Assembly: GCF_024159085.1 (NCBI RefSeq)
Contig: NZ_JAMZDE010000006.1
Span: 124,001-188,000 of the forward strand
Length of the DNA: 64,000 nucleotides
Direction: 5' to 3'
Origin: Idiomarina rhizosphaerae
GTDB lineage: Bacteria > Pseudomonadota > Gammaproteobacteria > Enterobacterales > Alteromonadaceae
This document shows, piece after piece, positions 35,100-54,120 of this stretch (position 1 is its first letter; each line of letters starts with the position of its first letter). Both the position numbers and the translations under genes were made by a program. The notes below the pieces were generated by a model. It worked only from the letters and a program-made list of their open reading frames with translations. It did no database searches and was not told the DNA's origin.

Positions 35100-36452
35100 A
35101 TGAAATGCTTAAGTCATAAAATGTTCAGCTTATTTGCAGGTGCTGTGGTGCTAGTGAGTCTTTGTTCTCATAGCTACGCGCAAACAGCTTCCTACTCCGA
35201 TGCAAAAGCGACTGACCCAGAAACGCTAGGCTGGATGCAAGGCTTCCCGCCATCGCCAGAGAAACTCATCATGCAGCCTGAATCAGACTTCTTTAGCTTT
35301 CCGAAGCTGCGTTGGACGGTATGTCATATTCGCGAACTCATGCCGACGAAACGCGTGAGAAAGGGATCCGAACCTCCATTATCGTTAGAATACGCTATTG
35401 ATAAAAATATCGATTCAGTGACTTTCAACACTATGGGTACGGAACAAACCATGACGTGGAGGGACTCTCTTGGAGCAAATTATACCGACGGCATTCTTAT
35501 ACTTCATAAAGGCAAAATTGTTTATGAACACTATTCGGGGTGTCTGGACGAGGGGGGTAAACACGCTGCTATGTCGATGACTAAGTCCATGACCGGACTG
35601 CTGGCAGAGATACTCGTTGTAGAAGGTGCGCTTGACGATACCGTAAAAGTTTCATCAATAATTCCCGAGCTTATCGATAGTGCTTTTGGTAGTGCAACTG
35701 TACGTCAGGTTATGGATATGACCACGGCACTAGATTATAGCGAGGATTACTCCGATCCAAACGCAGATATATGGATCTACTCAAAAGCTGCCAATCCCTT
35801 GCCGAAACCCAAAGAATATAAAGGCCCGAACGGCTATTTCGAATATCTACAAACCGTCAGACAAAAAGGCATTCACGGAGAAGCCTTTGGTTACAGGACG
35901 ATTAACACTGATACTCTTGGCTGGATCATTTCGCGGGTCACGGGTAAAGATTTAACCCAACTATTATCTGAACGTATCTGGAGCAAAATAGGGGCTGAGC
36001 AAGACGCTTACTTTACTGTTGATGCAAAAGGAACTCCCTTTGCAGGCGGCGGACTTAGCGCAGGCCTGCGTGATCTCGCACGTGTTGGCCAGTTGGTGCT
36101 AAACCGCGGAAGAATCAACGATCAGCAATTATTTCCAGAAGAGGCGGTCGCCAACATACAAGCCGGCGGCGATAAAGAGGTTTTTGCTAAAGCAGGTTAC
36201 AGCACGCTAAAAGGCGGAAGTTACACAAGTATGTGGTGGGTTTTACACAACGAGCATGAAGCTTTTGCAGCACGAGGCGTTCATGGGCAGACCATTTATA
36301 TTGATCCAACGGTAGATATGGTAATAGTGAGGTTAGCGTCTTTTCCTACCGCTGCAAATGCCAAGATTGACCCAACCTCGCTACCGGCTTATCAAGCGGT
36401 TGCTGAGTACTTAATGGGAAAAGGTGAATCCACAGAGGCAGCGTCAGAATAA
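35100..36452 (+). CDS. Secreted serine hydrolase, beta-lactamase/class C family
   Basis: 450 residues with a signal peptide to about 28 (LVSLCSHSYAQ). The serine beta-lactamase/penicillin-binding fold has its SxxK motif SMTK at 159-162, inside AAMSMTKSMTGLLAE; DYSED provides the Tyr-Ser motif and the late HGQTIYID replaces KTG. Such periplasmic enzymes are esterases, peptidases or amidases; the substrate cannot be named. Monocistronic. Confidence 0.85.
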   Translation: MKCLSHKMFSLFAGAVVLVSLCSHSYAQTASYSDAKATDPETLGWMQGFPPSPEKLIMQPESDFFSFPKLRWTVCHIRELMPTKRVRKGSEPPLSLEYAIDKNIDSVTFNTMGTEQTMTWRDSLGANYTDGILILHKGKIVYEHYSGCLDEGGKHAAMSMTKSMTGLLAEILVVEGALDDTVKVSSIIPELIDSAFGSATVRQVMDMTTALDYSEDYSDPNADIWIYSKAANPLPKPKEYKGPNGYFEYLQTVRQKGIHGEAFGYRTINTDTLGWIISRVTGKDLTQLLSERIWSKIGAEQDAYFTVDAKGTPFAGGGLSAGLRDLARVGQLVLNRGRINDQQLFPEEAVANIQAGGDKEVFAKAGYSTLKGGSYTSMWWVLHNEHEAFAARGVHGQTIYIDPTVDMVIVRLASFPTAANAKIDPTSLPAYQAVAEYLMGKGESTEAASE

Positions 36453-41412: not shown

Positions 41413-42723
41413 ATGTTTAATCGCCGCCTCAAAAATGAACTCGAAGATCAGCGTAAAGAATTAGCGATGCTCCGCCAACTGGCTAGCCAGATGGATCGTG
41501 GCATGCTGTCCATCACACTGAACTCCGACTTCTGCATATCTGCCGTAAACCAAAGCTTTGCTGATGTTCTGGGCTACCAGCGCGAACAGCTGTTAGGGCG
41601 ACCCATGTCGGAGATTGTACCAGCTTACGTCCCGAAGCTAGCTTGTTTTCGAGACTTTAATCAGGCCGTGGCAAAGCTCGCACCGATAAGCGATGACTAC
41701 CGCTACTTGCGTGCTGACGACTCCCTCGCCTGGCTTCGTATCAGTTGGCTTCCGATACAAAACGCTGACGGCAAACTATCCCATGTACAGGGATATGGTC
41801 GCGATGTAACCAAAACAGTTGAAGGCAAAAAAGAGAGTGAAGCATTCATTGATGCGCTGATCCGCTCCACTGCGGTTATTCAGTTTAACCTTGATGGCAC
41901 CGTAATCACCGCAAACGAACAGTTTCAGCAGGCCATGGGCTACCGGCTCGAACAAATTGCAGGCAAACACCACCGTATATTCTGTACACCAGAAGAGGTT
42001 CAGTCGCCCGAATACGCCGCCTTCTGGAAAAAACTAAACAACGGCGAGTACGTAGCGGACCGTTTCAAACGAGTCGACAGCCGTGGCGAAGAAGTTTGGC
42101 TTGAAGCCACTTATAACCCGGTTTACGACGCCGAGAACAACTTATCTAAGGTTGTGAAATTTGCCAGCGTGGTCACCGACCAAGTGGAACGGGAAGCTCA
42201 GGTAAGAGAAGGTGCAAGCGTCGCCTACGACGTTTCACAACAAACTGATGTAAGCGCCCAAAAAGGCTCCGCTGTGGTTCAGAAAACGGTAGAAACCATG
42301 CAGCAGATAGCCAGACAAATGCAAGGGACGAGCGAGAGCATTGAAGCGCTGGGTAAACAATCCCTGCAGATAAACGCCATAGTGCAAACCATCGGTGGCA
42401 TCGCAGAGCAGACAAACCTGCTGGCACTAAACGCCGCTATTGAGGCCGCCAGAGCCGGTGAACAAGGCCGCGGGTTTGCCGTGGTTGCCGACGAGGTTCG
42501 GAATCTGGCTGCCCGCACCAGTAAAGCCACAGAAGAGATTGTAAGAGTCGTCGAGAAAAACCAGACTCTCTCTGATGAGGTGATGCGTCAAATGTCCAGT
42601 ACCCGAGAGGAGGCAGAACAAGGCCTGGAATTAGCCAACCAGTCGGGAGCCGTCATTGTCGAGATTCGGGAAGGAGCTAAACAGGTGGTCAACGCTGTAG
42701 AACGCTTCGCTAATGAATTATAG
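41413..42723 (+). CDS. PAS-PAS methyl-accepting chemotaxis protein, BdlA-like
   Basis: 436 residues, no membrane helix, so a soluble receptor. PAS domains at about 30-135 and 145-255, then a signalling domain with the hairpin-tip sequence [20 protein letters not shown] and [17 protein letters not shown]. The layout and size match BdlA, the Pseudomonas biofilm-dispersal regulator (about 417 residues). The sensed signal (redox, oxygen or ligand) cannot be inferred. Monocistronic. Confidence 0.88.
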
Positions 42724-42767: not shown

Positions 42768-43910
42768 TCAAGACAGTACCGCAGTAATCGTTATACCAAT
42801 GAAAGTGGCTATGGCATAACCCAACACACCGACCAGCATACCGGGGGTGACAAGGTGACGCCAACCTTTACTGGCAGCCAGTGCCGCAGCGGCGGCCGGG
42901 CCGAGGATGCAAGCACTTGAGGCTATCATCATTTCCGCCAGGCTGAACCTGAACCGGGCACCAAGCCAAACCAGCAAAATAATATGCACCATAACGAGAA
43001 TAACCAGGAAAGCCACCATGGGCAGCGCTACGTCTACCATTGCGCCTAAGTCGGCGCCAAACCCAATGGTAGCGAAAAACACGTACATAAAAATGGTTCC
43101 TAAATGGTAATCAAACTGAATTTTCCTGGTGACTATAGCGGGCATGAAGTTAGCAACTATCAGTGACAACAGCGTTATCGCAATAATGAACATACCTGAA
43201 AATGGGAGTAGCGAAGCGACAAACAAACCTATGGTGCAAATGACCGCGCTCAGTAGTAAGGAAAAAATGACCCCGACTTCTGAAATCTTTTCTGGCTGAA
43301 TACCATTATCTCCCTGCTCACCGGCTTTACTTAAGTCAACGGTTCGGACACGCTCCCTACTTTTAAAGCGAGCAGCGACAAAATTTATCGCCGGTAATGC
43401 CATCAATAAGGTAAGAAAGACCATAGCCCCCAACGCATCAGCAGTGAGTGCTGCAGTATAAAGCGATGAATCCGCAAAGTTCACCGCCGCCGCAGTTGCC
43501 ACAAAGTTAGCGCTGCCACCAATATAGCTGGCGGAGAATACTCCTACCAACTGGCTTTCTGCCGCTCCCATATCAATCGCAAAAGCACCCACCACCGCAC
43601 CAATTAGAGTAAATGCGACAGCTAACAAAAAGGCAATAAGCATAAAACGGCTTTCGCGAAATGCCAGGCGCAGATCGGCGCTAAATAACAGCATGGGAAT
43701 AGCTAATGGCACCAAAACCGCTTGAATAGTGCTGTATAACGGTGCCTGATTAGGCAGAATACCTAAATTTCCCACCACAAAACTCAGCAGCAGTATGATT
43801 AAGGGTGCCGAGAGTGTGCTGCCCAGCTTGGTTTTCTCGCTCTGGTAGCCAATAAAAACAAGCAATAGCAAGCAAGCCAATAGCGCCATGGTGTTTTCTG
43901 GATCAATCAT
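42768..43910 (-). CDS. DUF819 family multi-spanning membrane protein
   Basis: 380 residues with about ten membrane segments; DUF819 family (YjcL-like). Begins LLVFIGYQSEKTKLGSTLSA; the GASYIGGSANFVATAAA-like segment near 130-145 is characteristic. The family is thought to transport small organic acids or amino acids. It lies 9 bp downstream of the DgcA-like racemase gene on the same strand, so it is a good candidate importer for that pathway's substrate. Confidence 0.82.
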   Translation of the reverse strand: MIDPENTMALLACLLLLVFIGYQSEKTKLGSTLSAPLIILLLSFVVGNLGILPNQAPLYSTIQAVLVPLAIPMLLFSADLRLAFRESRFMLIAFLLAVAFTLIGAVVGAFAIDMGAAESQLVGVFSASYIGGSANFVATAAAVNFADSSLYTAALTADALGAMVFLTLLMALPAINFVAARFKSRERVRTVDLSKAGEQGDNGIQPEKISEVGVIFSLLLSAVICTIGLFVASLLPFSGMFIIAITLLSLIVANFMPAIVTRKIQFDYHLGTIFMYVFFATIGFGADLGAMVDVALPMVAFLVILVMVHIILLVWLGARFRFSLAEMMIASSACILGPAAAAALAASKGWRHLVTPGMLVGVLGYAIATFIGITITAVLS

Positions 43911-43919
43911 GTGCTGCCC

Positions 43920-45026
43920 CTAGTTTATCGTTATTGCGCGGTCGAGTTCCGATTCGATAAACTCAGCACCATGACCTACTCCGTCAGGTAATACGATTTT
44001 ACCGCCCTCGTTCGCAACATATTCAAGTCCGCCTTTAACCGGATCCGCACAATAGTGCAGCGCAGAATCCAAATCTATAAACTGAATATTTGGCCGGGCG
44101 CAGGCCACATGAGCAGCTGCCGAAAGCCCTAAGCGGCTCTCACCAAAACACCCAATCATACAGCGCACACCAGACGCTTCGGCAATACTGTTAATTTTCA
44201 GTGCGGTATTAATTCCTCCAGATTTCACCAGCTTAATATTCAGAAAGTCCACCGCGTCGGCTTTAATCAAACGCAACGCATCAATATGGTTAAATACGCT
44301 TTCATCAGCGCAAATGGGCATTCTTGTATTCGCACGCAACTGCGCGAAGCCGTCCACGTCCCACGCAGGCAATGGCTGTTCAAGGTACTCTATGTCCAGC
44401 TTCTCTAAGTAATGCAGGTTTGCCATTGTCATGGGGTAATCCCAGCCCTGATTACAGTCAATACGCAGCTTAATAGTCTCACCAACTGCCTCACGCACCG
44501 CAGCAACATGCTCCACATCAATCAAATCAGCTCGGCCGGTTTTCAGTTTTATCGTCGAGAACCCTTCGGCTACCAGGCGCTTTGCCATGGCTACGGTTTC
44601 TTGCACCGAATCCTGATGGCCGATGGTATGGTCGGTTTCCAGCGGCCGCCTTTGCCCACCTAAAAATTGATAAAGCGGCATGCCTGCTTGTTTGGCTGCT
44701 AAGTCGTACATCGCCATATCAAACGCGCAGATCATACTGGTCGCCCGGCCACTGTAGCGCCTTAACACCGCTAAATTATCTTCCATGGCTAACGCGTCTT
44801 TACCCACCAACAGGCGTGCCAGATCTTGCCCCAGCGCATAACTACTCTCCTGTGTGTCACTGGTTATCGCTGACATTGGACTGGTTTCACCCCAGCCATA
44901 CAGGCCGCTATCGGTTTCAATTTTCACCACCACATTGCGGGCTGCAGCAATCACACCTATGGGTGTTTTAATCGCGTGATGCATCTCGACATTCAATAGT
45001 GCCAGCTTAATCGCGCTGATCTTCAT
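43920..45026 (-). CDS. dgcA: Enolase-superfamily racemase: DgcA-like / dipeptide epimerase
   Basis: 368 residues of the muconate-lactonizing-enzyme subgroup. Catalytic bases: KxK at 160-162 (TIKLKTG), metal ligands D190 (RIDCNQGW), E216 (EYLEQPL) and D241 (CADESVF), and a second base in NIKLVKSGG (265-268). These positions closely match L-Ala-D/L-Glu epimerases. Because a DUF1611/DgcN gene lies in the same cluster, the N-acetyl-D-glutamate racemase DgcA is the likelier reading; dipeptide epimerase is the alternative. Transcribed with the DUF819 gene. Confidence 0.8.
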   Translation of the reverse strand: MKISAIKLALLNVEMHHAIKTPIGVIAAARNVVVKIETDSGLYGWGETSPMSAITSDTQESSYALGQDLARLLVGKDALAMEDNLAVLRRYSGRATSMICAFDMAMYDLAAKQAGMPLYQFLGGQRRPLETDHTIGHQDSVQETVAMAKRLVAEGFSTIKLKTGRADLIDVEHVAAVREAVGETIKLRIDCNQGWDYPMTMANLHYLEKLDIEYLEQPLPAWDVDGFAQLRANTRMPICADESVFNHIDALRLIKADAVDFLNIKLVKSGGINTALKINSIAEASGVRCMIGCFGESRLGLSAAAHVACARPNIQFIDLDSALHYCADPVKGGLEYVANEGGKIVLPDGVGHGAEFIESELDRAITIN

Positions 45027-45086
45027 AGTTTTTCCTTTAGTGAATCAAAACATTCTTGATGAACTATAAGGCTGTTAAATTTAAAA

Positions 45087-45100
45087 ATAAAGCTGTACAA
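45087..45100. promoter_or_regulatory. Shared cluster operator candidate 1
   Basis: ATAAAGCTGTACAA, identical to a 14-bp sequence upstream of the D-aminoacylase gene 5.4 kb away. It lies in the divergent region between the racemase gene and the TonB-receptor gene, where one regulator could control both directions. Confidence 0.6.
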
Positions 45101-45218
45101 GATGTTTTTTGTTGATTATTGTTTAACCACTAAGGCAGTAATGATCACGAATAATTAACGAAAAAATCACCAAAAAGTAACCAGAATATAATAAACAACA
45201 GGTGAAAGTAGGTATCCT

Positions 45219-47483
45219 ATGAACAACAAAATCAATTACTTAACCCGTAGTATTCGAATTTTAATTTATGGTATGTCGGTCGTTTCAGTCAGCGCTTTGG
45301 CTCAGCAAGCAGAAGAAAATGACAAACAATCGGTTGAGGAAGACAGTTTAGAAATCATTGAAGTCACCTCCTCCCGACGTGTCCAGACCATTCAAGATAC
45401 CCCCGCAGCAGTTTATGCCGTCGACCCAGACTCCTTTATTCAACGTGGTTTAACCTCCATATCCGATGTGGTTGAAGAAGCGCCGGGATTCAGTTTCAGT
45501 AGTGCAACGGGTCAGGCAGGACGCGGCTCTATTAGTGCCCGCGGTGTAAGCCAACAAAATGACTCGCCGGTAACGGCCATATACTTAGATGACGTACCAC
45601 TGACCAGTAGCACCGGCTTTGCCGCTGGCGGTCGCTTATTCTTTGACGGCTTACTGGGAGACGTGGCCCGGGTTGAACTCGTTAAGGGCCCGCAAGGTAC
45701 ACTATTTGGTGCAACCGCCATTGCCGGAGCGGTGCGTTATATTACTAACAAACCTGAAGTGTACGACTCACGCGGTAAGTTCACCGTCGATTACTCTCAA
45801 ACCAAAGGGGGCGATTTAAACCAGCTGTATCGCGGTTTTTATAGCTTTCCGCTAATTGAAGGCAAGCTGGGTCTTACCTTAGCAGGCTTTTCTCAGGATA
45901 ACGGCGGCTACGTTGATCAGGTGAGTCCAGCAACGGGTTCACTGATTCGTGAAAATGCCAACGACTCCGAAAACCACGGCTATTCCGCCGATCTTTATTA
46001 CACCCCAACCGATAAGTTTGATATTCGCCTGAAAGCAATGAAACAGGAGTCATCCTTTAACTTAAGCTCCGCGGTGCGCATTGCTTCTATCGACAAAGAC
46101 GAAGCCTATGGTGAATTTTTGTCTGACGCGGCCTATGGCTCCGATGAGCTGACCCAAACCTTATACTCAGTCAGCGCCAGTTACGAGATGGAAGGAGCAG
46201 TGCTGGATTTCACCAGCAGTAAAGCGGAGTATGAAGGTGCTGCAGCGGAGGATGTCGTATCACTTTACGGACCTATTATCGAACAGTTAGAGGGACTACC
46301 TGCTGGTAGTGTCGAATCAGCTCCCCTCTCACGCGATGTGGGATCCGACAAGTCGGTGCATGAACTTCGACTAACATCGACCACTGAAGGAAATTATGAA
46401 TGGTTGGTCGGACTGTTTTATTCAGATGAATCGACCCAAAACTCACAACGCTTAACCGGCATGCCACAAGATATTCTGGCACTCAACGCCGAGTTCCCAA
46501 GTGACTACAACGAACTCGCAGCTTTTGGTAACTATACCTATTACCTAACCGATAATTTTGATGTTACCGCAGGCTTGCGAGTATCAAAAACTGAGCAGTC
46601 ACTTATTTTTGTTCAGGAAGGTCCGCTACTTGGTGGCGGCAGCGTTGTTGAAGAACTGGAAACAGCCAAAGAAACAGTTGAAACTTACCTGTTAACAGCG
46701 CGATACAGACCAACTAATGACACCTCGTTTTATACCCGCATCGCAAGCGGCTACCGGCCAGCTTCGTCGAACTTAAGTGTGAGAAACCCTTTTACCGGTG
46801 AAATACTCTCACAACCAGTTGTCGAACAGGATGATTTATGGAGCTATGAAGTTGGTGTGAAAGGTTCGTTAGCCGACGACAAGTTTAACTATGAATCAGC
46901 ACTTTATTACATTGACTGGAAAAACTTCCAGACCATCGTCACCTTTTTTGGTATTGGTACCGACGGCAACGCCCGTAACGGCATTACGGTGCAGGGTTGG
47001 GAAGGCAGTTTCGATTACCAAATTACGCCGAACTTAGCCTTCAAAGCAGCGGCTGCTTACAATGAAAGCACATTGAATGAAGATGAACCCGAACTGTTTG
47101 GCTTAAAAGGTGCCACGGTGCCAAACACACCAAAATGGACCTTTAACTCCAGCGTTTTTTACGACTACCAACTGCCTTACAACATGAATGGCTGGATTAG
47201 CGCTAGCGCAAACTATAAAGACAGCATGAACTCAGCCTTTGTTAATGGTGACCCGGAAAACCCCTCGGTTAATTTACCCAGTGATGACTTCACCACAATC
47301 AACCTGACCACCGGCGTTGAAAAGAATAACTGGCTATTCACGTTGTACGTGAACAACCTGCTGGATAAAAAGGCCTACACCTTCTTTAACGCTAATGCCG
47401 TACCGGGCAGCGATGTCGTGGATATCACGGGTATTCCCCTGGAACCCCGTACCATCGGTGTATCGGTCTCGTATTCATTTTAA
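45219..47483 (+). CDS. TonB-dependent outer-membrane receptor
   Basis: 754 residues: signal peptide to about 28 (SVVSVSALAQQ), a TonB-box-like segment EDSLEIIEVTSSRR, plug domain with ISARGVSQQNDSPVTAIYLDDVP and VELVKGPQGTLFGATAIAGAVRYIT, then the 22-strand barrel ending in ...VSVSYSF with terminal Phe. Its cluster position points to uptake of peptidoglycan or peptide material rather than siderophore, but that is inference. First gene of a plus-strand unit with dgcN and ykvI-like. Confidence 0.93.
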   Translation: MNNKINYLTRSIRILIYGMSVVSVSALAQQAEENDKQSVEEDSLEIIEVTSSRRVQTIQDTPAAVYAVDPDSFIQRGLTSISDVVEEAPGFSFSSATGQAGRGSISARGVSQQNDSPVTAIYLDDVPLTSSTGFAAGGRLFFDGLLGDVARVELVKGPQGTLFGATAIAGAVRYITNKPEVYDSRGKFTVDYSQTKGGDLNQLYRGFYSFPLIEGKLGLTLAGFSQDNGGYVDQVSPATGSLIRENANDSENHGYSADLYYTPTDKFDIRLKAMKQESSFNLSSAVRIASIDKDEAYGEFLSDAAYGSDELTQTLYSVSASYEMEGAVLDFTSSKAEYEGAAAEDVVSLYGPIIEQLEGLPAGSVESAPLSRDVGSDKSVHELRLTSTTEGNYEWLVGLFYSDESTQNSQRLTGMPQDILALNAEFPSDYNELAAFGNYTYYLTDNFDVTAGLRVSKTEQSLIFVQEGPLLGGGSVVEELETAKETVETYLLTARYRPTNDTSFYTRIASGYRPASSNLSVRNPFTGEILSQPVVEQDDLWSYEVGVKGSLADDKFNYESALYYIDWKNFQTIVTFFGIGTDGNARNGITVQGWEGSFDYQITPNLAFKAAAAYNESTLNEDEPELFGLKGATVPNTPKWTFNSSVFYDYQLPYNMNGWISASANYKDSMNSAFVNGDPENPSVNLPSDDFTTINLTTGVEKNNWLFTLYVNNLLDKKAYTFFNANAVPGSDVVDITGIPLEPRTIGVSVSYSF

Positions 47484-47520
47484 TCCATCGTTAAATTTCA
47501 AGAAGTAAGGCAGGTAGCGT

Positions 47521-48573
47521 ATGAGTACTATGAAGATTAAGTTGCCCTATGTCATTTTCCTGGGCGACGTAGAGGATAAAACGCTGGTAAAGACAGGAGC
47601 GGGTCTTGCTAAGTGGTGCGGCGATGACGTTTTGGGACAACTTAGACTAGCCTCTTGTGCGGTCGATCTTGGCCTTACAGAATTAACGCTCACCGAGGCT
47701 ATTGCTAAAGGTGCAAAGAGCTTGGTTATTGGTGTTGCAACGGTAGGCGGTAGCGTCAAACCAAGCTGGTTGCCTACCTTCGTGCAGGCATTGGAGGCAG
47801 GCTTGGATATTATCAATGGACTACATACAAACCTGAGTAATATTCCCGAATTGGCAGAGGCTCAACAAAAAAGTAGTGGGCAAATTATTAATATACGTCA
47901 GGTCACCGGAGAATTTCCTATCGCAACAGGCAAGAAGCGCCGGGGAATGCGGCTGCTGACGGTTGGAACCGATTGTGCAGTTGGCAAAAAATATACCGCC
48001 CTGGAACTCAGTTTAGGCCTGAACACGGCGGGAATAGACGCCACGTTTAGAGCCACCGGCCAGACCGGTATTATGATAGCAGGCGAAGGTCTGCCGGTGG
48101 ATAGCGTAGTCAGCGACTTTGTCAGCGGTGCAGCAGAGCTCATCTCGCCAGATAATAATGCCGACCATTGGGATATTATTGAAGGTCAGGGGTCGCTCTT
48201 TAACCCGTCATTTTCAGCGGTCAGCCTCGGTTTACTGCATGGCTCACAGCCTGATGCCATTATTGTTTGTCACGATGTCGCCCGCGAAACTATTAGTACC
48301 TGCCCTGACTATCAATTACCGACTCTGCAAGCCTGTATCGATCTGCATTTGCAATGCGCCCGAATTGTTAACCCCACCGTCCGTTGTATTGGTATCAGCG
48401 TTAATACCTCGTCGCTGAACCAGGACAAGCGAGAGGAATACTTGCAGGCACTCGAACAAGAATTAGGTTTACCCTGTGTTGACCCGTTAATCACCGGGTG
48501 CGACACTCTGATTAAAGAGCTGATGATGCAATTTTATCCGCAGCAAACCAGGCTGGCACATGCCGAATTATAA
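47521..48573 (+). CDS. dgcN: DUF1611 protein, DgcN-like D-glutamate N-acetyltransferase
   Basis: 350 residues of the DUF1611 family. N-terminal Rossmann-like domain (about 8-135) and a P-loop-like GTDCAVGKKYTA at 149-160, then the IIEGQGSLFNPSFSAV region. Family members named DgcN acetylate D-glutamate, working with the DgcA racemase to yield N-acetyl-L-glutamate. Both partners being in this cluster supports the assignment. Its end overlaps the YkvI-like permease start by 14 bp. Confidence 0.82.
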   Translation: MSTMKIKLPYVIFLGDVEDKTLVKTGAGLAKWCGDDVLGQLRLASCAVDLGLTELTLTEAIAKGAKSLVIGVATVGGSVKPSWLPTFVQALEAGLDIINGLHTNLSNIPELAEAQQKSSGQIINIRQVTGEFPIATGKKRRGMRLLTVGTDCAVGKKYTALELSLGLNTAGIDATFRATGQTGIMIAGEGLPVDSVVSDFVSGAAELISPDNNADHWDIIEGQGSLFNPSFSAVSLGLLHGSQPDAIIVCHDVARETISTCPDYQLPTLQACIDLHLQCARIVNPTVRCIGISVNTSSLNQDKREEYLQALEQELGLPCVDPLITGCDTLIKELMMQFYPQQTRLAHAEL

Positions 48574-49699
48574 TCGTTGGATTCGTGGGTTTAGTATTTA
48601 CCTGGTACCAGGCCTGGTATTCCAGTCGGTTATTGTTGGTGGCGGTTATGGCACAGGACGCGAAATAACTGAATTTTTCTTAGTTCACGGCGTGCTCGGC
48701 GGCTTCTTTGGTATGCTCATATCCTGTCTGGTGTGGGGCGCTGTTTTAGCCGTCGCCTTCGAGTTTGCCCGCATTACCAAAAGCTACAACTACAAAAGCT
48801 TCTTTCAAGCTCTGCTCGGTCGCTTTTGGTGGTTATTTGAAGTTATTTACTTATTAATAGCCTTATTGGTACTTGCCGTACTCGGCTCAGCCGCCGGCGA
48901 AATTATCAGCCAGCTACTGGACGTTCCTGCGGTAATTGGCGTACTCACACTAATGCTGTTTGTCGGCATACTCACCTTTTTCGGTAGCAAGCTTATAGAA
49001 CGTGTTTTTGTCGGCTGGTCGGCGCTATTATTTTTGACTTACATAGCGCTATTCGCCAGTACGTTCACCAATTTTAATGACGAAATTATTGGCCATTTTA
49101 ATGCAGCAACAATAACGGGAGCCTGGGCTGTCGATGGTGTACGTTACGCAGCCTATAACCTGAATGCTCTCGCTGCCGTGCTATTTATTGTACCGCGCTT
49201 TGTTAAAACTCAACACGCGGTCGGTGCCGGTTTATTGGCTGGTGTAGTCGCCATAGTGCCAGGAATTTTTGTGTTTTTAACCTTGTTGGCGAACTATCCG
49301 GGCGTATTGACTGCGCCCGTCCCTGTCACTCAGGTGTTATCTGCACTTAATCTCGTTTGGCTGTTAGTGCTGTTTCAGGTGATGTTATTTGGCACTTTTA
49401 TTGAAACGGGTACCGGTGTCATTCACGCTATTAACGAACGCGTTGCCGGAACCTTTCAAACGAACCGCAAAGCCTTTCCACAGTGGTTACGGGCAGCTAT
49501 AGCGCTCAGCTTTTTATTTATTGCTACGTTTTTAGCTAACAAAATAGGCATTATCAGCCTAATTGCCAGCGGCTATGGTCTACTCTCTTACGCCTACATT
49601 GCGGTAGTCATTCTACCCTTGCTAACCGTTGGCCTGGCCAGAATACTCCTGCACCGGCGCAGGCAAGAGCAACTGGCAACCAACTCTCTAAACAATTAG
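48560..49699 (+). CDS. YkvI-like amino-acid permease
   Basis: 379 residues with about ten membrane helices; YkvI family, related to the LeuT-fold amino-acid transporters. SVIVGGGYGTGREITEFFL in helix 1 is the unwound-helix pattern typical of the fold. Translationally coupled to dgcN. A likely importer for the amino acid released by the secreted hydrolases of the cluster. Its 3' end overlaps the convergent regulator by 12 bp. Confidence 0.82.
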   Translation: MPNYNRWIRGFSIYLVPGLVFQSVIVGGGYGTGREITEFFLVHGVLGGFFGMLISCLVWGAVLAVAFEFARITKSYNYKSFFQALLGRFWWLFEVIYLLIALLVLAVLGSAAGEIISQLLDVPAVIGVLTLMLFVGILTFFGSKLIERVFVGWSALLFLTYIALFASTFTNFNDEIIGHFNAATITGAWAVDGVRYAAYNLNALAAVLFIVPRFVKTQHAVGAGLLAGVVAIVPGIFVFLTLLANYPGVLTAPVPVTQVLSALNLVWLLVLFQVMLFGTFIETGTGVIHAINERVAGTFQTNRKAFPQWLRAAIALSFLFIATFLANKIGIISLIASGYGLLSYAYIAVVILPLLTVGLARILLHRRRQEQLATNSLNN

Positions 49700-50353
49700 A
49701 TCCTGAGTGTAAAACTGCTTGTTCTGGAACACAGCGTCCAGCACCCGTTCTTCAGTTTGCACTATCATGTCGTTAATACAGGCGTGAATGCGTTTGCGAT
49801 CATCGGTGCGCATCACGTCAATAATGGTGCTTTGCTGATCACTCGAATAAGGAAATGCTTCCTTAGTTTTTATGTAGAGCCAATAAATACGCATAGCGGT
49901 ATCTTCTAATTGACGCACCCAGTCAATCATTAATGGATAGCCAATAGGCTCACATAGCGTGAGGTTAAGCTCTTTATTTACTTTCAGTAGCTCAAGCGCC
50001 GTCTCGTCATCTTTGAAAGGAAGCAGACTGGATATTTTTTTATTCAACGCCGTTATTTTATCGAAATCAACTTTAGACGCGCCAGCAATGATCTCCGGCA
50101 ACAGCATGCGTCGCAGCATAAAGTTTTGCCTTATTTCGAGCAATGTCAGCGGTGCTACCTGAGTGATCCGAGGAGATAGCGTGACCAAAAAATGTTGCGC
50201 TGCCAGACGTTCCATCATATTTCTCGCCATTGCGCGACTAATACCAAAAGTCTCACTCAGAATATTTTCTGACACTTTTTGGCTGGGTGGCAATGCCTGA
50301 GTAACGATGGCATCCATAATCATGCCATACGGATCCGCAGCTTCTTGTTTCAT
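49688..50353 (-). CDS. GntR-family regulator (FCD type) of the cluster
   Basis: 221 residues: winged helix at about 8-75 (VSENILSETFGISRAMARNMMERL) and an all-helical C-terminal FCD effector domain (MLLPEIIAGASKVDFDKI, HACINDMIVQTEERVLDAV). FCD domains bind metal and small carboxylates such as amino or organic acids. It sits inside the cluster on the opposite strand, facing the D-aminoacylase gene, and is the natural candidate for the shared motif. Confidence 0.88.
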   Translation of the reverse strand: MKQEAADPYGMIMDAIVTQALPPSQKVSENILSETFGISRAMARNMMERLAAQHFLVTLSPRITQVAPLTLLEIRQNFMLRRMLLPEIIAGASKVDFDKITALNKKISSLLPFKDDETALELLKVNKELNLTLCEPIGYPLMIDWVRQLEDTAMRIYWLYIKTKEAFPYSSDQQSTIIDVMRTDDRKRIHACINDMIVQTEERVLDAVFQNKQFYTQDLIV

Positions 50354-50426
50354 GATGGCCTCTTCTCTCTGCTAAAACCAGATAGCTTATTATTAAAAAC
50401 TTACCCGCTAGTATAACAGCATGTCA

Positions 50427-50451
50427 TTAAATTTAATCCTGTACGGCAAGT
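50427..50451. promoter_or_regulatory. Related operator candidate upstream of the GntR gene
   Basis: TTAAATTTAA followed by CTGTAC resembles the layout upstream of the receptor gene (TTAAATTTAA, then GCTGTACAA). It lies in the 214-bp divergent region between the regulator and the D-aminoacylase gene, an autoregulatory position. The match is partial. Confidence 0.4.
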
Positions 50452-50500
50452 ATTTAATTTTGACGGAATAGAACAACTAATAAATCAGCCATAATTAAAT

Positions 50501-50514
50501 ATAAAGCTGTACAA
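50501..50514. promoter_or_regulatory. Shared cluster operator candidate 2
   Basis: ATAAAGCTGTACAA, identical over 14 bp to the site upstream of the TonB-receptor gene. It lies 54 bp before the D-aminoacylase start codon, where it could overlap a promoter. Confidence 0.6.
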
Positions 50515-50567
50515 AAAGAAATGAATGTGGTTAATTAATCGACAAGAGCAATAAAGGAAGCACGCAA

Positions 50568-52139
50568 ATGTGGCAATACAATAAACGCTCCTTGTTGAAC
50601 GTACTGTTTATTATAAGTTTAAGTTTGAGCTTCGGAATTCCGAGAGCTTTCGCTCAAACCACTTCAGCTGAAGAATACGATATCGTGTTACTCGGTGGTC
50701 GCGTCATTGATCCCGAAACTGGATTGGACGATATTCGCAACATAGGCATTAACGACAGCAAAATTGCCATAGTTACGGACGACTCTATTACTGGCGAACA
50801 GAAGGTAGATGCCAAGGGGTTAGTGATAAGCCCCGGCTTTATTGATATGCATGCCCACGGACAAACCATTCTATCCGGTCGGGTACAGGCCTTTGATGGT
50901 GTCACTACCGCACTTGAGCTGGAATCAGGCACTTTTCCTGTGGACGAATTCTACGAAATACGCGCGCAAGAGGGCCGCCCCATTAACTATGGCGCTTCGG
51001 TCAACTGGCTCAGCGCCCGCATTGCTACCCTACTGAATGTTGAACCCTCTAGTGAGGCCAGCTGGTTTTCAGAAATGATGAACCGTAAGGGTTGGCAAAA
51101 TTCAATTGCCACCCGTGAGCAGCTCAGTGAAATTGAACGCCATGTGAGCGAAGGTTTAGACGCCGGAGGCCTGGGTGTGGGATTTCTGACTGGCTATGCG
51201 CCGGGCTCTGGACAAAAAGAATACTACCACGTGAGCAAGCTTGCCGCAGAGCGCGGAGCTCCAACGTTTACCCATGCACGTTACTTATCAATGGCCGAGC
51301 CGCAGAGTTCATTTGAAGCCATTCAGGAAATTATTAGCGTAGCCGCCAGTACAGGTGTCCACGCACACATTGTCCATTTAAACTCTATTAGCCTGAAAGA
51401 TATTAAACTCATAGCAGACATGATCAGCACGGCACAGGAAGCTGGGGTAAAACTTTCCACTGAAGCCTACCCTTACGGTGCTGGTGCCACCTCCATTGGT
51501 GCGGAAATGTTCCGTGGAAAAGGTTGGCGTGAACGTATTGGCAATATCAGCGCAGAGAATTTTGCCGTTGACGGCAAGCGCCTTTCCGAAGTTGAGTTTG
51601 CTCAGTTACAGGAAGAAGCACCAGGCACCGATATTATTATTCACTTTCTTGAAACCGAAAACCTTGCTGAGCGGGCTTTTATCGATCATGCGCTGCTCAT
51701 GCCAGACGGTGTCATCGCCTCTGATGGCGGTGACTGGCTGAATGATGGCGAGCCGGTTGATGAACTCACTTGGCCACTGCCAAATTCGGCCTGGTCACAC
51801 CCTCGCAGTGCCGGCACATTTACGCGCTTCATTAGCCAATACGCCGTGCAGCGAGAACAGCTACCACTAAGCGATGCTATCGCAAAAGTCAGTCTTCTAC
51901 CGGCGCAGCTACTGGAAGACTACGTGCCCTCCATGAAGCATAAGGGCCGAATCCAAGTCGGCAGTGATGCCGATTTAGCGGTGTTTTCACTCACAGAACT
52001 GGCGGATGCCGCCACTTACGCCAATCCAGCTCAATTGTCTCGTGGCATGAAGTACCTGTTGGTAAACGGCCAATTTCTTATTCACGACGGTGTGTTAAAC
52101 ACCGACGTTTTACCAGGCAAAGCAATACGTAATAACTGA
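50568..52139 (+). CDS. Secreted N-acyl-D-amino-acid deacylase family amidohydrolase
   Basis: 523 residues: signal peptide to about 30 (LSLSFGIPRAFAQ), then a metal-dependent amidohydrolase. HAH at 95-97 in SPGFIDMHAHGQ, HARYLSMAE, HIVHLNS and the DGG(D) segment ASDGGDWL are metal-site motifs of the D-aminoacylase subtype; the closing LAVFSLTELADAATYANPAQ is typical of the family. It would release D-amino acids from N-acylated forms in the periplasm, upstream of import and the DgcN/DgcA route. Confidence 0.87.
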   Translation: MWQYNKRSLLNVLFIISLSLSFGIPRAFAQTTSAEEYDIVLLGGRVIDPETGLDDIRNIGINDSKIAIVTDDSITGEQKVDAKGLVISPGFIDMHAHGQTILSGRVQAFDGVTTALELESGTFPVDEFYEIRAQEGRPINYGASVNWLSARIATLLNVEPSSEASWFSEMMNRKGWQNSIATREQLSEIERHVSEGLDAGGLGVGFLTGYAPGSGQKEYYHVSKLAAERGAPTFTHARYLSMAEPQSSFEAIQEIISVAASTGVHAHIVHLNSISLKDIKLIADMISTAQEAGVKLSTEAYPYGAGATSIGAEMFRGKGWRERIGNISAENFAVDGKRLSEVEFAQLQEEAPGTDIIIHFLETENLAERAFIDHALLMPDGVIASDGGDWLNDGEPVDELTWPLPNSAWSHPRSAGTFTRFISQYAVQREQLPLSDAIAKVSLLPAQLLEDYVPSMKHKGRIQVGSDADLAVFSLTELADAATYANPAQLSRGMKYLLVNGQFLIHDGVLNTDVLPGKAIRNN

Positions 52140-52203
52140 TAAGTAACACCCAAAAATAATAAAAAATTAAAATAATAAAGACAGAACAACCAAGGAGAAA
52201 GTT

Positions 52204-54120
52204 ATGCAGGTTCATCAAAAAATAAGCAGCGGTGCGCAGTTTTTTGCACTGTGCAGCTTGTTACTGATTACCTTGTTATTCAGTATTCTGACAAGTGCTC
52301 AGGCAAGCGCACAAGAGCAGCTAGAGAACATCGATACATATATAGACGGTACAATTGAAGCCCAAATGATTCTGGAGGACATCCCGGCTGTCACCGTATC
52401 CGTGGTGAAAGACGGCGAGCTTTTATTCTCCAAAGGCTACGGCTTGGCGGATATTGAAGAGCAGGAACCGGTGAGTGCAGAGACCTCTCTCTTTCGCATT
52501 GGCTCTACCTCTAAGCTATTTACCTGGACCGCCGTCATGCAGTTGCATGAAAAAGGTCAGCTTGATCTGGATGCCGACGTTAACCAGTATCTGGATTTCG
52601 AAATTCCGGCTACCTACGAGCAACCTATTACCCTGCGCCATATTCTATCGCACACCGCTGGTTTCGAAGATGGTGGTTTAGGCTATTTAATTCACTATTT
52701 CCCGGACAAAGGTCCTGAATTAGCCGACGCAATGAAAATGTACATCCCAACCCGCGTCAACCCACCGGGTGAAGTATCATCTTATTCCAACTACGCGACC
52801 GCGCTGGCTGGTCTGATAGTACAGAACGTATCCGGCACACAATTTAATCAGTACGTTGAAGAAAATATTTTTGCACCACTGAATATGAAATACGCGAGCT
52901 TCAATGAGCCTCTGTCCGACAGCATGAACGAGCATATGGTCAAAGGCTACACCCGTGAGATGGGTAAGTTTGCGGAGCAACCATTTGAAATGATCAACGC
53001 CTTTGGGCCAGCCGGCGGGGCTTCCGCAAGTGCCGATGCTATGGCCAAATTCATGATCGCCCATCTGAACAATGGTGAGTTCAACGGCAACCGGATCCTC
53101 CAGAAAGAAACCGCAGAGCAAATGCATTCGCTCTTATTTACCGCGGATGAACGCTTCTCGGGCGGCATGGCACACGGCTTTTACGTCAGCGACTATAACG
53201 GTCATCGCGTTATTGGCCACGGTGGCGATACCATGCAATTCCACACCGACTTAGCCATAGATAAAGACCAGAATCTCGGTATCTTCGTCTCTTATATGTC
53301 GACTGTGAGTAATGCCGCACGCAATAATTTTGTAAAACAAATTTATGATCATTACTTCCCGCAACCACTTAAGCAGCTAAAACCTCCGAGCGACTTCGCC
53401 GAGCGTGCTGACAAGTATGCTGGCTCTTATACCTTCTGGCGCCGTAATATTAGCTCCATTGAAAAGGCCTTAGGCATTATGGGTGGCACTATTGATGTTG
53501 TTCCAACCGAAGATAATACCCTGATGGTCACGGGTCTTTATCATCCGCGCCAGTTTGTTGAAGTGGACGATAACTTATTCCGTCAGGTTGACGGTGACGA
53601 GCAGATAACCTTTGTGTCCCGCAGCGGCGATGGCATTGATACACTGTATTTCGAAAGCTTCCCGTTTATGGGCATGGAGCGTACCCCAACCTTTGAAACC
53701 GGGTTATTCAAGCTGCTATTACCAACCTTCATTTTACTGCTGTTCTTACAGGTTGTGATTAGCTGGTTCTACAAGCGCAAACACTACAAAACCCTGCCTT
53801 CGGCAAACCGTTCGCTGGTGTATAGCGCACTATGGATGAGTCTGTCTCATTTAGTCGCTGTTATCTTGTTGGTTGGCATTGTGCTGGGCTATCAGGATGC
53901 TCTGTATAGCGGTATTCCGTTCATACTAAAAGCGGCCCTAGTACTGCCTATTATCGCCGTGCTGCTGACGCTGTTTAGCATTTACACCTACGTTAAGCGC
54001 ATTAAAACAGGTGAAGCCTCTACGCTAAGCCACATTTACTACAGCGTCGTCATATTAGCCGGAGTTTATATGGCGGTGTACTACTATTACTGGAACATCC
54101 TGGGCTGGAACTACTACTAA
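52204..54120 (+). CDS. Secreted serine hydrolase with four-helix membrane tail
   Basis: 638 residues. Signal segment to about 36, then a class C beta-lactamase/D-aminopeptidase-like domain with SxxK (STSK, 101-104), YSNYATALAG as the Tyr motif and GHGGDTMQFHTD. A lipocalin-like linker is followed by about four hydrophobic helices between 500 and 635, tethering the catalytic domain to the inner membrane facing the periplasm. It follows the D-aminoacylase gene by 64 bp and probably shares its transcript, making a D-amino-acid peptidase plausible. Confidence 0.85.
   Translation: MQVHQKISSGAQFFALCSLLLITLLFSILTSAQASAQEQLENIDTYIDGTIEAQMILEDIPAVTVSVVKDGELLFSKGYGLADIEEQEPVSAETSLFRIGSTSKLFTWTAVMQLHEKGQLDLDADVNQYLDFEIPATYEQPITLRHILSHTAGFEDGGLGYLIHYFPDKGPELADAMKMYIPTRVNPPGEVSSYSNYATALAGLIVQNVSGTQFNQYVEENIFAPLNMKYASFNEPLSDSMNEHMVKGYTREMGKFAEQPFEMINAFGPAGGASASADAMAKFMIAHLNNGEFNGNRILQKETAEQMHSLLFTADERFSGGMAHGFYVSDYNGHRVIGHGGDTMQFHTDLAIDKDQNLGIFVSYMSTVSNAARNNFVKQIYDHYFPQPLKQLKPPSDFAERADKYAGSYTFWRRNISSIEKALGIMGGTIDVVPTEDNTLMVTGLYHPRQFVEVDDNLFRQVDGDEQITFVSRSGDGIDTLYFESFPFMGMERTPTFETGLFKLLLPTFILLLFLQVVISWFYKRKHYKTLPSANRSLVYSALWMSLSHLVAVILLVGIVLGYQDALYSGIPFILKAALVLPIIAVLLTLFSIYTYVKRIKTGEASTLSHIYYSVVILAGVYMAVYYYYWNILGWNYY

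Follow-up and report, generated by a model that had tools for sequence, protein, structure and literature searches.

The window studied here, 64,000 nucleotides of Idiomarina rhizosphaerae (NCBI RefSeq assembly GCF_024159085.1, contig NZ_JAMZDE010000006.1, positions 124,001 to 188,000 of the forward strand), carries at positions 42768-54120 eight contiguous genes arranged around a DgcN-type D-glutamate N-acetyltransferase and an enolase-superfamily racemase, hereafter RAC. We propose, with a probability of about 0.57, that RAC has displaced the racemase DgcA for N-acetyl-D-glutamate within a GntR-controlled regulon for the scavenging of D-glutamate-type amino acids, as comparison of sequences and gene neighbourhoods suggests. 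The original paper on the DgcN-DgcA pathway reportedly appeared in the ISME Journal in 2023. The window resembles that pathway in holding a DgcN-type acetyltransferase and an enolase-superfamily racemase in one cluster, but it differs in having no DgcA and a racemase of another clade, in having a GntR/FCD gene where a LysR-like gene (by eye) lies beside a canonical dgcN (locus L013), and in adding a receptor, two permeases and exported hydrolases to the same putative regulon. Excerpts of the literature give DgcN as EC 2.3.1.312 and DgcA as EC 5.1.1.25 (PMC11747546) and describe the pathway (PMC10845958). What is new is the pairing of DgcN with RAC, a variant of the known pathway; among the matches listed from the open-licence literature, no pairing of DgcN with a dipeptide epimerase is described.

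A sequence-only reading of this DNA had described the same eight genes as a D-amino-acid scavenging cluster, and our scans agree with its positions and families except for the labels that it gave to the racemase and the D-aminoacylase. It was right that all catalytic residues of the racemase are present (K160/K162, D190, E216, D241, K265), and RAC is the sole protein over the MR_MLE_C (PF13378) cut-off in this genome (2.87 Mb, 99.9% complete). The name 'DgcA-like' does not hold, as RAC reaches only 143 bits against the DgcA model NF042940 (cut-off 400). The canonical DgcN-DgcA conversion assumed in that reading falls with it, since DgcA is absent from the genome, where RAC itself is the best NF042940 match, and RAC falls in a different clade. 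The tree, built on 106 sequences after removal of nine duplicate rows, joins RAC and 26 relatives in one clade (support 100/99). This clade nests in a larger group (100/99) that also contains dipeptide epimerases of the Cytophaga hutchinsonii type, and the group is separate from the Ala-Glu epimerases and from 43 DgcA-type rows (100/100 branch). On score, tree and residues, we therefore reject the identification of RAC as DgcA. The closest relative of RAC is that of Pseudidiomarina aestuarii (73%). A search of viral contigs with the racemase found no relative, and a 46% relative (L089) lies on a contig of a metagenome-assembled genome (MAG) of Candidatus Prometheoarchaeum, an Asgard archaeon, which may be a binning error.

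The structures nearest to RAC place it on the dipeptide-epimerase side of the superfamily. The C. hutchinsonii dipeptide epimerase 3q45, whose function is taken from its entry title, is the best match in the PDB by sequence (244 bits) and ranks first in Foldseek with the RAC structure model (38% identity, TM-score 0.93); it shares Gly24 and the GxFxESRLG motif with RAC, but RAC stands in a separate clade and has dgcN as gene neighbour in ten loci. The Bacillus cereus N-succinyl Arg/Lys racemase 2p88 (named by its entry title) has a similar fold, ranks sixth and offers a precedent for the use of N-acyl substrates, although it is only 29% identical to RAC and acts on other substrates. The L-Ala-D/L-Glu epimerase YkfB (1jpm; PMC5808125, in part) shares the fold, both catalytic lysines and D321/D323 with RAC, but RAC lacks its Arg24 and falls in another clade. 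The KxK motif, the D-E-D metal ligands, the second lysine and the DxD motif, residues of the dipeptide epimerase/MLE subgroup, are conserved in all 27 RACs, and they do not separate RAC from DgcA because DgcA keeps them too. D321 and D323, which we take to be tied to dipeptide binding, are retained in 43/43 and 42/43 DgcA-type sequences; we therefore rejected them as proof of dipeptide specificity, and the motif does not exclude N-acetyl substrates.

The distribution of the three proteins among genomes carries much of the argument. A scan of the genome collection for RAC relatives gave 52 loci, and in ten of them, from Bacteroidota and Alpha- and Gammaproteobacteria, RAC lies directly beside dgcN on the same strand: Polaribacter L069, L071, L072 and L075, Maribacter antarcticus L082, Emcibacter L073 and L083, Sphingomonadales L080, MOLA455 L079 and Saprospiraceae L111. 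DgcA is missing in six of the nine such genomes examined. The survey of DgcA, RAC and DgcN covered 24 of the 52 loci plus the genome of the window: 23 of the 27 loci at 50% or more (L081, L085 and L087 lie in genomes already covered via L076 and L084, and L075, a Polaribacter MAG, stands outside), and L117, added for its DgcN-DgcA genes, its genome G270 not being counted. DgcN was present in 22 of the 25 genomes examined and RAC in 21 of those 22. A DgcA match of at least 300 bits is missing in 12 of these 21 genomes, versus none of 36 genomes with DgcN and without RAC (Fisher 4e-7, kinship not corrected for; the controls come from the window's order only and include no Bacteroidota). Within the Pseudomonadota only, it is missing in 6 of 15 (Fisher 3e-4, likewise uncorrected for kinship). 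The DgcA-free genomes are those of the window, three Pseudidiomarina, MOLA455, SAR92 H231, three Polaribacter MAGs, two Saprospiraceae MAGs and Maribacter antarcticus, so that the losses span about four families (Idiomarinaceae, Porticoccaceae, Flavobacteriaceae and Saprospiraceae).

The controls were the 37, out of 46 genomes in the window's order, whose DgcN match was strong; the window's own genome and eight with only distant matches were left out. All 36 without RAC have DgcA matches (34 over the cut-off, one of 383 bits and one split by a stop), and the best DgcA per genome scores 383-503 bits, except in Neptunicella (318; it has RAC) and in the split case. In the latter (G175:C1:4356848-4357809), DgcA lies in two pieces with a stop, either a pseudogene or a sequencing error.

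DgcA can decay in the company of RAC. The catalytic Lys162 is lost in two of the 43 DgcA-type sequences, those of Neptunicella (T162) and HF-Dia07 (S162), as the pairwise alignment confirms, and in HF-Dia07 the DxD motif is altered too. Both sit in a cluster that also holds RAC. These losses may be one event, because the two decayed DgcAs are sisters. HF-Dia07 has a second, intact DgcA elsewhere (L122), and Neptunicella has no other. In YkfB, mutating either catalytic lysine lowers activity, according to an excerpt of PMC5808125.

By sequence the window protein is very probably a DgcN, as had been read from the DNA (460 bits over the full length of NF041892, just below the cut-off of 480), and acetylation of D-glutamate is predicted. 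The protein scores 341 bits against PDB 7xrj, an entry not named as a DgcN, and is 59% identical to the Neptunicella DgcN, which adjoins a DgcA-type gene. In the DgcN tree (53 labelled rows, near-identical or duplicate loci left out) it is sister to the DgcNs of the Neptunicella and HF-Dia07 clusters, which hold RAC and DgcA. DgcNs linked to RAC are mixed with those linked to DgcA, and five changes of the RAC-linked label are required on this tree; partners have therefore been exchanged. A label 'dgcN nearby', set on 25 of the 27 RACs (all but L074 and L089), takes seven changes on the RAC tree. Pseudidiomarina homiensis (L152/L178, G265:C2:361048-362025) and Pseudidiomarina sp. CB1 (L153) hold a second dgcN with a LysR-like neighbour, judged by eye. 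A DgcA beside it was considered and rejected: no open reading frame there is dgcA-like, and these genomes contain no match at DgcA level. A distant DUF1611 gene also lies directly beside a distant enolase-superfamily racemase in Maribacter (G260:C1:487610-489474) and Polaribacter (G251:C56:79039-80794), and the pairing of DUF1611 proteins with epimerases may be more general than DgcN-DgcA.

The eight genes look like one regulon, because both divergent intergenic regions of the cluster carry the same rare element (AAAGCTGTACAA; common stretch TAAAGCTGTACAA). The pattern AARGCTGTACAA occurs three times in the genome, two of these being the cluster promoters (reversed pattern, 1), and four times in Neptunicella marina (G183), where three copies precede receptor, amidohydrolase and M19 genes in the orthologous cluster (reversed, 2). 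GntR relatives of 62-80% occur in nine further RAC-bearing loci, and in eight of these ten loci, counting the window, the core [AG]GCTGTACA precedes cluster genes: the window, three Pseudidiomarina, Neptunicella, HF-Dia07, P. shioyasakiensis (9-base core only) and Emcibacter L073. These matches are all intergenic, ahead of TonB, amidohydrolase, PF00144, M19 or RAC genes. Over 239 kb of GntR-bearing loci, with the near-identical L068 and L091 both counted, the core was found 15 times, versus a mean of 2.95 and a maximum of 6 in 20 shuffles; its reversed pattern was found 4 times. The other loci hold 2 in 461 kb (shuffled mean 4.65). The regulator has its domains in the correct order, with scores of 21.0 bits for PF00392 (cut-off 27) and 22.3 bits for PF07729 (cut-off 24.3), and is the predicted binder of the element. 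The identical eight-gene order, for which a search had been suggested, is found in P. aestuarii, P. homiensis and Pseudidiomarina sp. CB1; order and shared element together exceed what chance would give. A D-amino-acid scavenging regulon around DgcN, whose shared element also covers the TonB and permease genes, is thus well supported by context, and we regard it as quite probable.

The TonB receptor stays under the curated cut-off of every NCBIfam receptor model listed and has a 52% relative in the Neptunicella and P. shioyasakiensis clusters. Its two companion permeases are unrelated, as had been noticed, one being of the DUF819 family and the other of the APC-superfamily fold. In Neptunicella, HF-Dia07, P. 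shioyasakiensis and Pseudidiomarina, too, the racemase gene is followed by a DUF819 orthologue, and the DUF819 permease is a candidate importer of the racemase substrate. A second DUF819 permease is encoded at a separate Neptunicella locus (L047:3997-7690) together with an Ala-Glu epimerase and an NlpC/P60 protein, which hints that dipeptide epimerases may generally have DUF819 beside them. The second permease, which we take to belong to a YkvI-like family, has no Pfam match. Its AF2 model (pLDDT 82.9) finds AdiC as best PDB match (E 1.7e-5, TM-score 0.67) and also matches LeuT, ApcT, and metal and nucleobase carriers of the APC superfamily. Elsewhere a YkvI-like permease adjoins DgcN, DgcA or RAC. 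The genome of the window encodes ArgB, which acts next on N-acetyl-L-glutamate, and, away from the cluster, an M19 dipeptidase.

Of the earlier 'D-aminoacylase' label, the subfamily stands: the amidohydrolase scores 651.5 bits against NF006560 (PRK09061; cut-off 340), a subfamily that presumably carries the label 'D-glutamate deacylase'. What does not stand is the metal site of the characterised enzymes. Their cysteine ligand is absent, because the protein has no cysteine in 523 residues, and ELE stands where subtype V enzymes have it. Characterised D-aminoacylases of that subtype use a Cys/His/His site (PMC12017989, in part). The signal-like N-terminus of the amidohydrolase was judged by eye, and the PF00144 serine hydrolase has C-terminal hydrophobic segments.

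The proposed hydrolase layer recurs elsewhere, as DgcN or RAC is repeatedly found with D-aminoacylase-type, PF00144, M19 and M55 genes in Gamma- and Alphaproteobacteria and Bacteroidota. Genes of the D-aminoacylase type, with signal-like N-termini by eye, occur in the clusters of Emcibacter L180, Saprospiraceae L181 and L111, Polaribacter L071 and G058 L043; an M19 dipeptidase occurs in those of Neptunicella and Emcibacter L180. In MOLA455 (L079:6225-11110) dgcN lies beside an M55 D-aminopeptidase, and in SAR92 H231 (L179:9019-14528) near a member of M81/MlrC, a family known from microcystin breakdown. This company supports a D-residue peptide or conjugate as the source. Upstream of the cluster in Neptunicella marina (L041:1-5496) lie D-aminoacylase-like, RidA-like, SSS-type symporter and GH20-like genes, the last three labels by eye; we left them out of the cluster, as they resemble an oxidised-chitin (Ong-like) set (OngB: PMC12017989, in part; the rest by eye). 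That the TonB and hydrolase layers extend the known pathway, as had been suggested, is partly anticipated: an excerpt of PMC3400609 (2012) places a TonB receptor beside a D-aminoacylase gene in the marine gammaproteobacterium NOR5-3, with N-acyl-D-amino acids as proposed substrate. The arrangement is like that of the window, but no DgcN, racemase or regulator is mentioned in that excerpt.

We propose a series of steps by which the regulon would scavenge D-glutamate-type D-amino acids from peptides and other conjugates. The exported hydrolases (50568-54120) would trim the substrate, the TonB receptor would carry its presumed cargo through the outer membrane and the two permeases would import the products. 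DgcN would then N-acetylate D-glutamate, or a close D-acidic amino acid or its amide, and RAC would turn the N-acetyl-D form into N-acetyl-L-glutamate for arginine/glutamate metabolism. RAC, coming from the dipeptide-epimerase side of the superfamily, would have displaced a DgcA of another clade, and dipeptides imported by DUF819 may remain among its substrates. A further version, that RAC is an independently evolved N-acetyl-D-amino-acid racemase, a second 'DgcA' recruited from the dipeptide epimerases that probably still epimerises dipeptides, is slightly short of an even chance in our estimate; one enzyme would then serve the free-D-glutamate and D-dipeptide branches of one regulon, and DgcA would thus be dispensable. 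On this version DgcA would have been kept beside RAC (Emcibacter), retained minus its catalytic lysine (Neptunicella and HF-Dia07) or lost (Pseudidiomarina), and DgcN would have swapped partners in several lineages of Proteobacteria and Bacteroidota.

Several observations weigh against displacement of DgcA by RAC or against the regulon proposed around it. DgcA is kept in 9 of the 21 RAC and DgcN genomes; three genomes with RAC beside dgcN (L073, L080 and L083) have it, L073 in the same cluster. Five genomes carry DgcA and RAC within 15 kb on one contig, with Lys162 lost in two. The lysine is kept in the others, namely Emcibacter L073 (one cluster, 2.8 kb apart), NORP106 (14.7 kb) and Woeseiaceae L086 (9.4 kb, the intervening genes looking unrelated). 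Because DgcA is intact in L073, we rejected a loss of Lys162 in every RAC-bearing cluster. Several of the DgcA-absent calls concern MAGs of unknown completeness, and another enolase-superfamily enzyme could serve in the DgcA-free Bacteroidota, P. homiensis and CB1. The promoter element is missing from two of the ten GntR-bearing loci, L080 (a 4.8 kb contig) and L083. P. shioyasakiensis has RAC and no DgcN, so RAC must have a role independent of acetylation, probably the epimerisation of dipeptides in concert with DUF819. A further point concerns the residues around position 24. Position 24 is Gly in 27/27 RACs, with no Arg at 23-26; Arg24, which we take to have a role in glutamate binding, is found in 8/8 Ala-Glu epimerases, and Arg23 in 32/43 DgcA-type sequences. 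Candidate residues for the side chain in RAC are Arg/Lys at 20 (21/27) and Arg298 (27/27).

These observations have been weighed under other explanations as well. RAC could be solely a dipeptide epimerase for X-D-Y dipeptides imported by DUF819, with DgcN and the YkvI-like permease as a separate free-D-glutamate branch delivering N-acetyl-D-glutamate to an unrecognised enzyme or as an end product. Its nearest structures by sequence and fold (3q45, 1jpm and 3jva) are dipeptide epimerases, it pairs with DUF819 and PF00144/M19 peptidases even without DgcN, and the separate Neptunicella locus joins DUF819 to an Ala-Glu epimerase and an NlpC/P60 gene. Emcibacter NORP245 has DgcN-DgcA-YkvI and RAC-DUF819 as separate clusters, and in the Emcibacter L073 cluster an intact DgcA stands with RAC and DgcN as if doing different work. 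However, DgcN is retained without DgcA in the window's genome and three Pseudidiomarina genomes, ten loci have RAC beside dgcN where DgcA would stand, Lys162 is gone from DgcA in two RAC-bearing clusters and the D321/D323 pair, kept in DgcA, allows N-acetyl substrates. We consider a dipeptide-only RAC rather unlikely. The same architecture could instead serve mainly another D-amino acid (D-Asp, D-Asn, D-Gln or a hydrophobic one), as the absence from RAC of the arginines of Ala-Glu epimerases and DgcA and the DgcN score just below its cut-off would suggest. Yet the window DgcN is closely related to the Neptunicella DgcN beside a DgcA-type gene, and RAC-linked DgcNs form no clade of their own, which makes this explanation distinctly improbable. 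Ordinary muropeptide recycling of the Ala-Glu epimerase type, with incidental neighbours, would account for a dipeptide-epimerase-like enzyme beside hydrolases and a permease. We give it hardly any weight: RAC lies outside the Ala-Glu epimerase clade and has Gly24 for Arg24 throughout, on which grounds its identification as such an epimerase was rejected; Neptunicella keeps its separate Ala-Glu epimerase locus with an NlpC/P60 gene; and a Pfam scan of the eight proteins found no NlpC/P60 domain.

If RAC does replace DgcA, then Pseudidiomarina, Polaribacter, the SAR92/Porticoccaceae group and degraders like them will escape surveys based on canonical DgcA. Excerpts of PMC10845958 and PMC12363236 place D-amino acids within recalcitrant marine organic matter. 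The series from intact DgcA through lysine-less DgcA to absent DgcA would offer a case of enzyme displacement open to direct testing, and a putative regulon joining outer-membrane uptake, hydrolysis and racemisation is delimited by the common promoter element.

The racemase and DUF819 genes run leftwards, the receptor, dgcN and permease genes rightwards, and the amidohydrolase and serine hydrolase genes rightwards behind the divergent GntR gene (Table 1); this grouping gives the putative operon structure.

Table 1. Genes and promoter elements of the cluster, in window positions
Feature	Position	Strand	Remarks
DUF819 permease	42768..43910	-	PF05684 193.5 bits; downstream of racemase gene
RAC, enolase-superfamily racemase/epimerase	43920..45026	-	clade beside C. 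hutchinsonii dipeptide epimerase
Promoter/operator-like element TAAAGCTGTACAA	45088..45100	+	divergent racemase-receptor intergenic region
TonB-dependent outer-membrane receptor	45219..47483	+	Plug domain
DgcN-type D-glutamate N-acetyltransferase (DUF1611), predicted	47521..48573	+	NF041892 460 bits, cut-off 480
YkvI-like permease (presumed family)	48560..49699	+	APC-superfamily fold; overlaps dgcN by 14 bases
GntR/FCD transcriptional regulator	49688..50353	-	weak FCD and GntR matches
Weaker element copy	50426-50458		near second TAAAGCTGTACAA copy
Second copy of element TAAAGCTGTACAA	50502..50514	+	before amidohydrolase gene
PRK09061-subfamily amidohydrolase, signal-like N-terminus	50568..52139	+	NF006560 651.5 bits
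PF00144 serine hydrolase, signal-like N-terminus	52204..54120	+	218.5 bits; SxxK, YxN, HGG motifs

Rfam and tRNA scans of the window gave no matches. Another PF00144 (beta-lactamase fold) hydrolase lies at 35100-36452, 6 kb from the cluster. A PAS-PAS chemoreceptor gene (41413-42723) ends 44 bases before the cluster, and a 45% relative of it is found near the Neptunicella cluster (L110).

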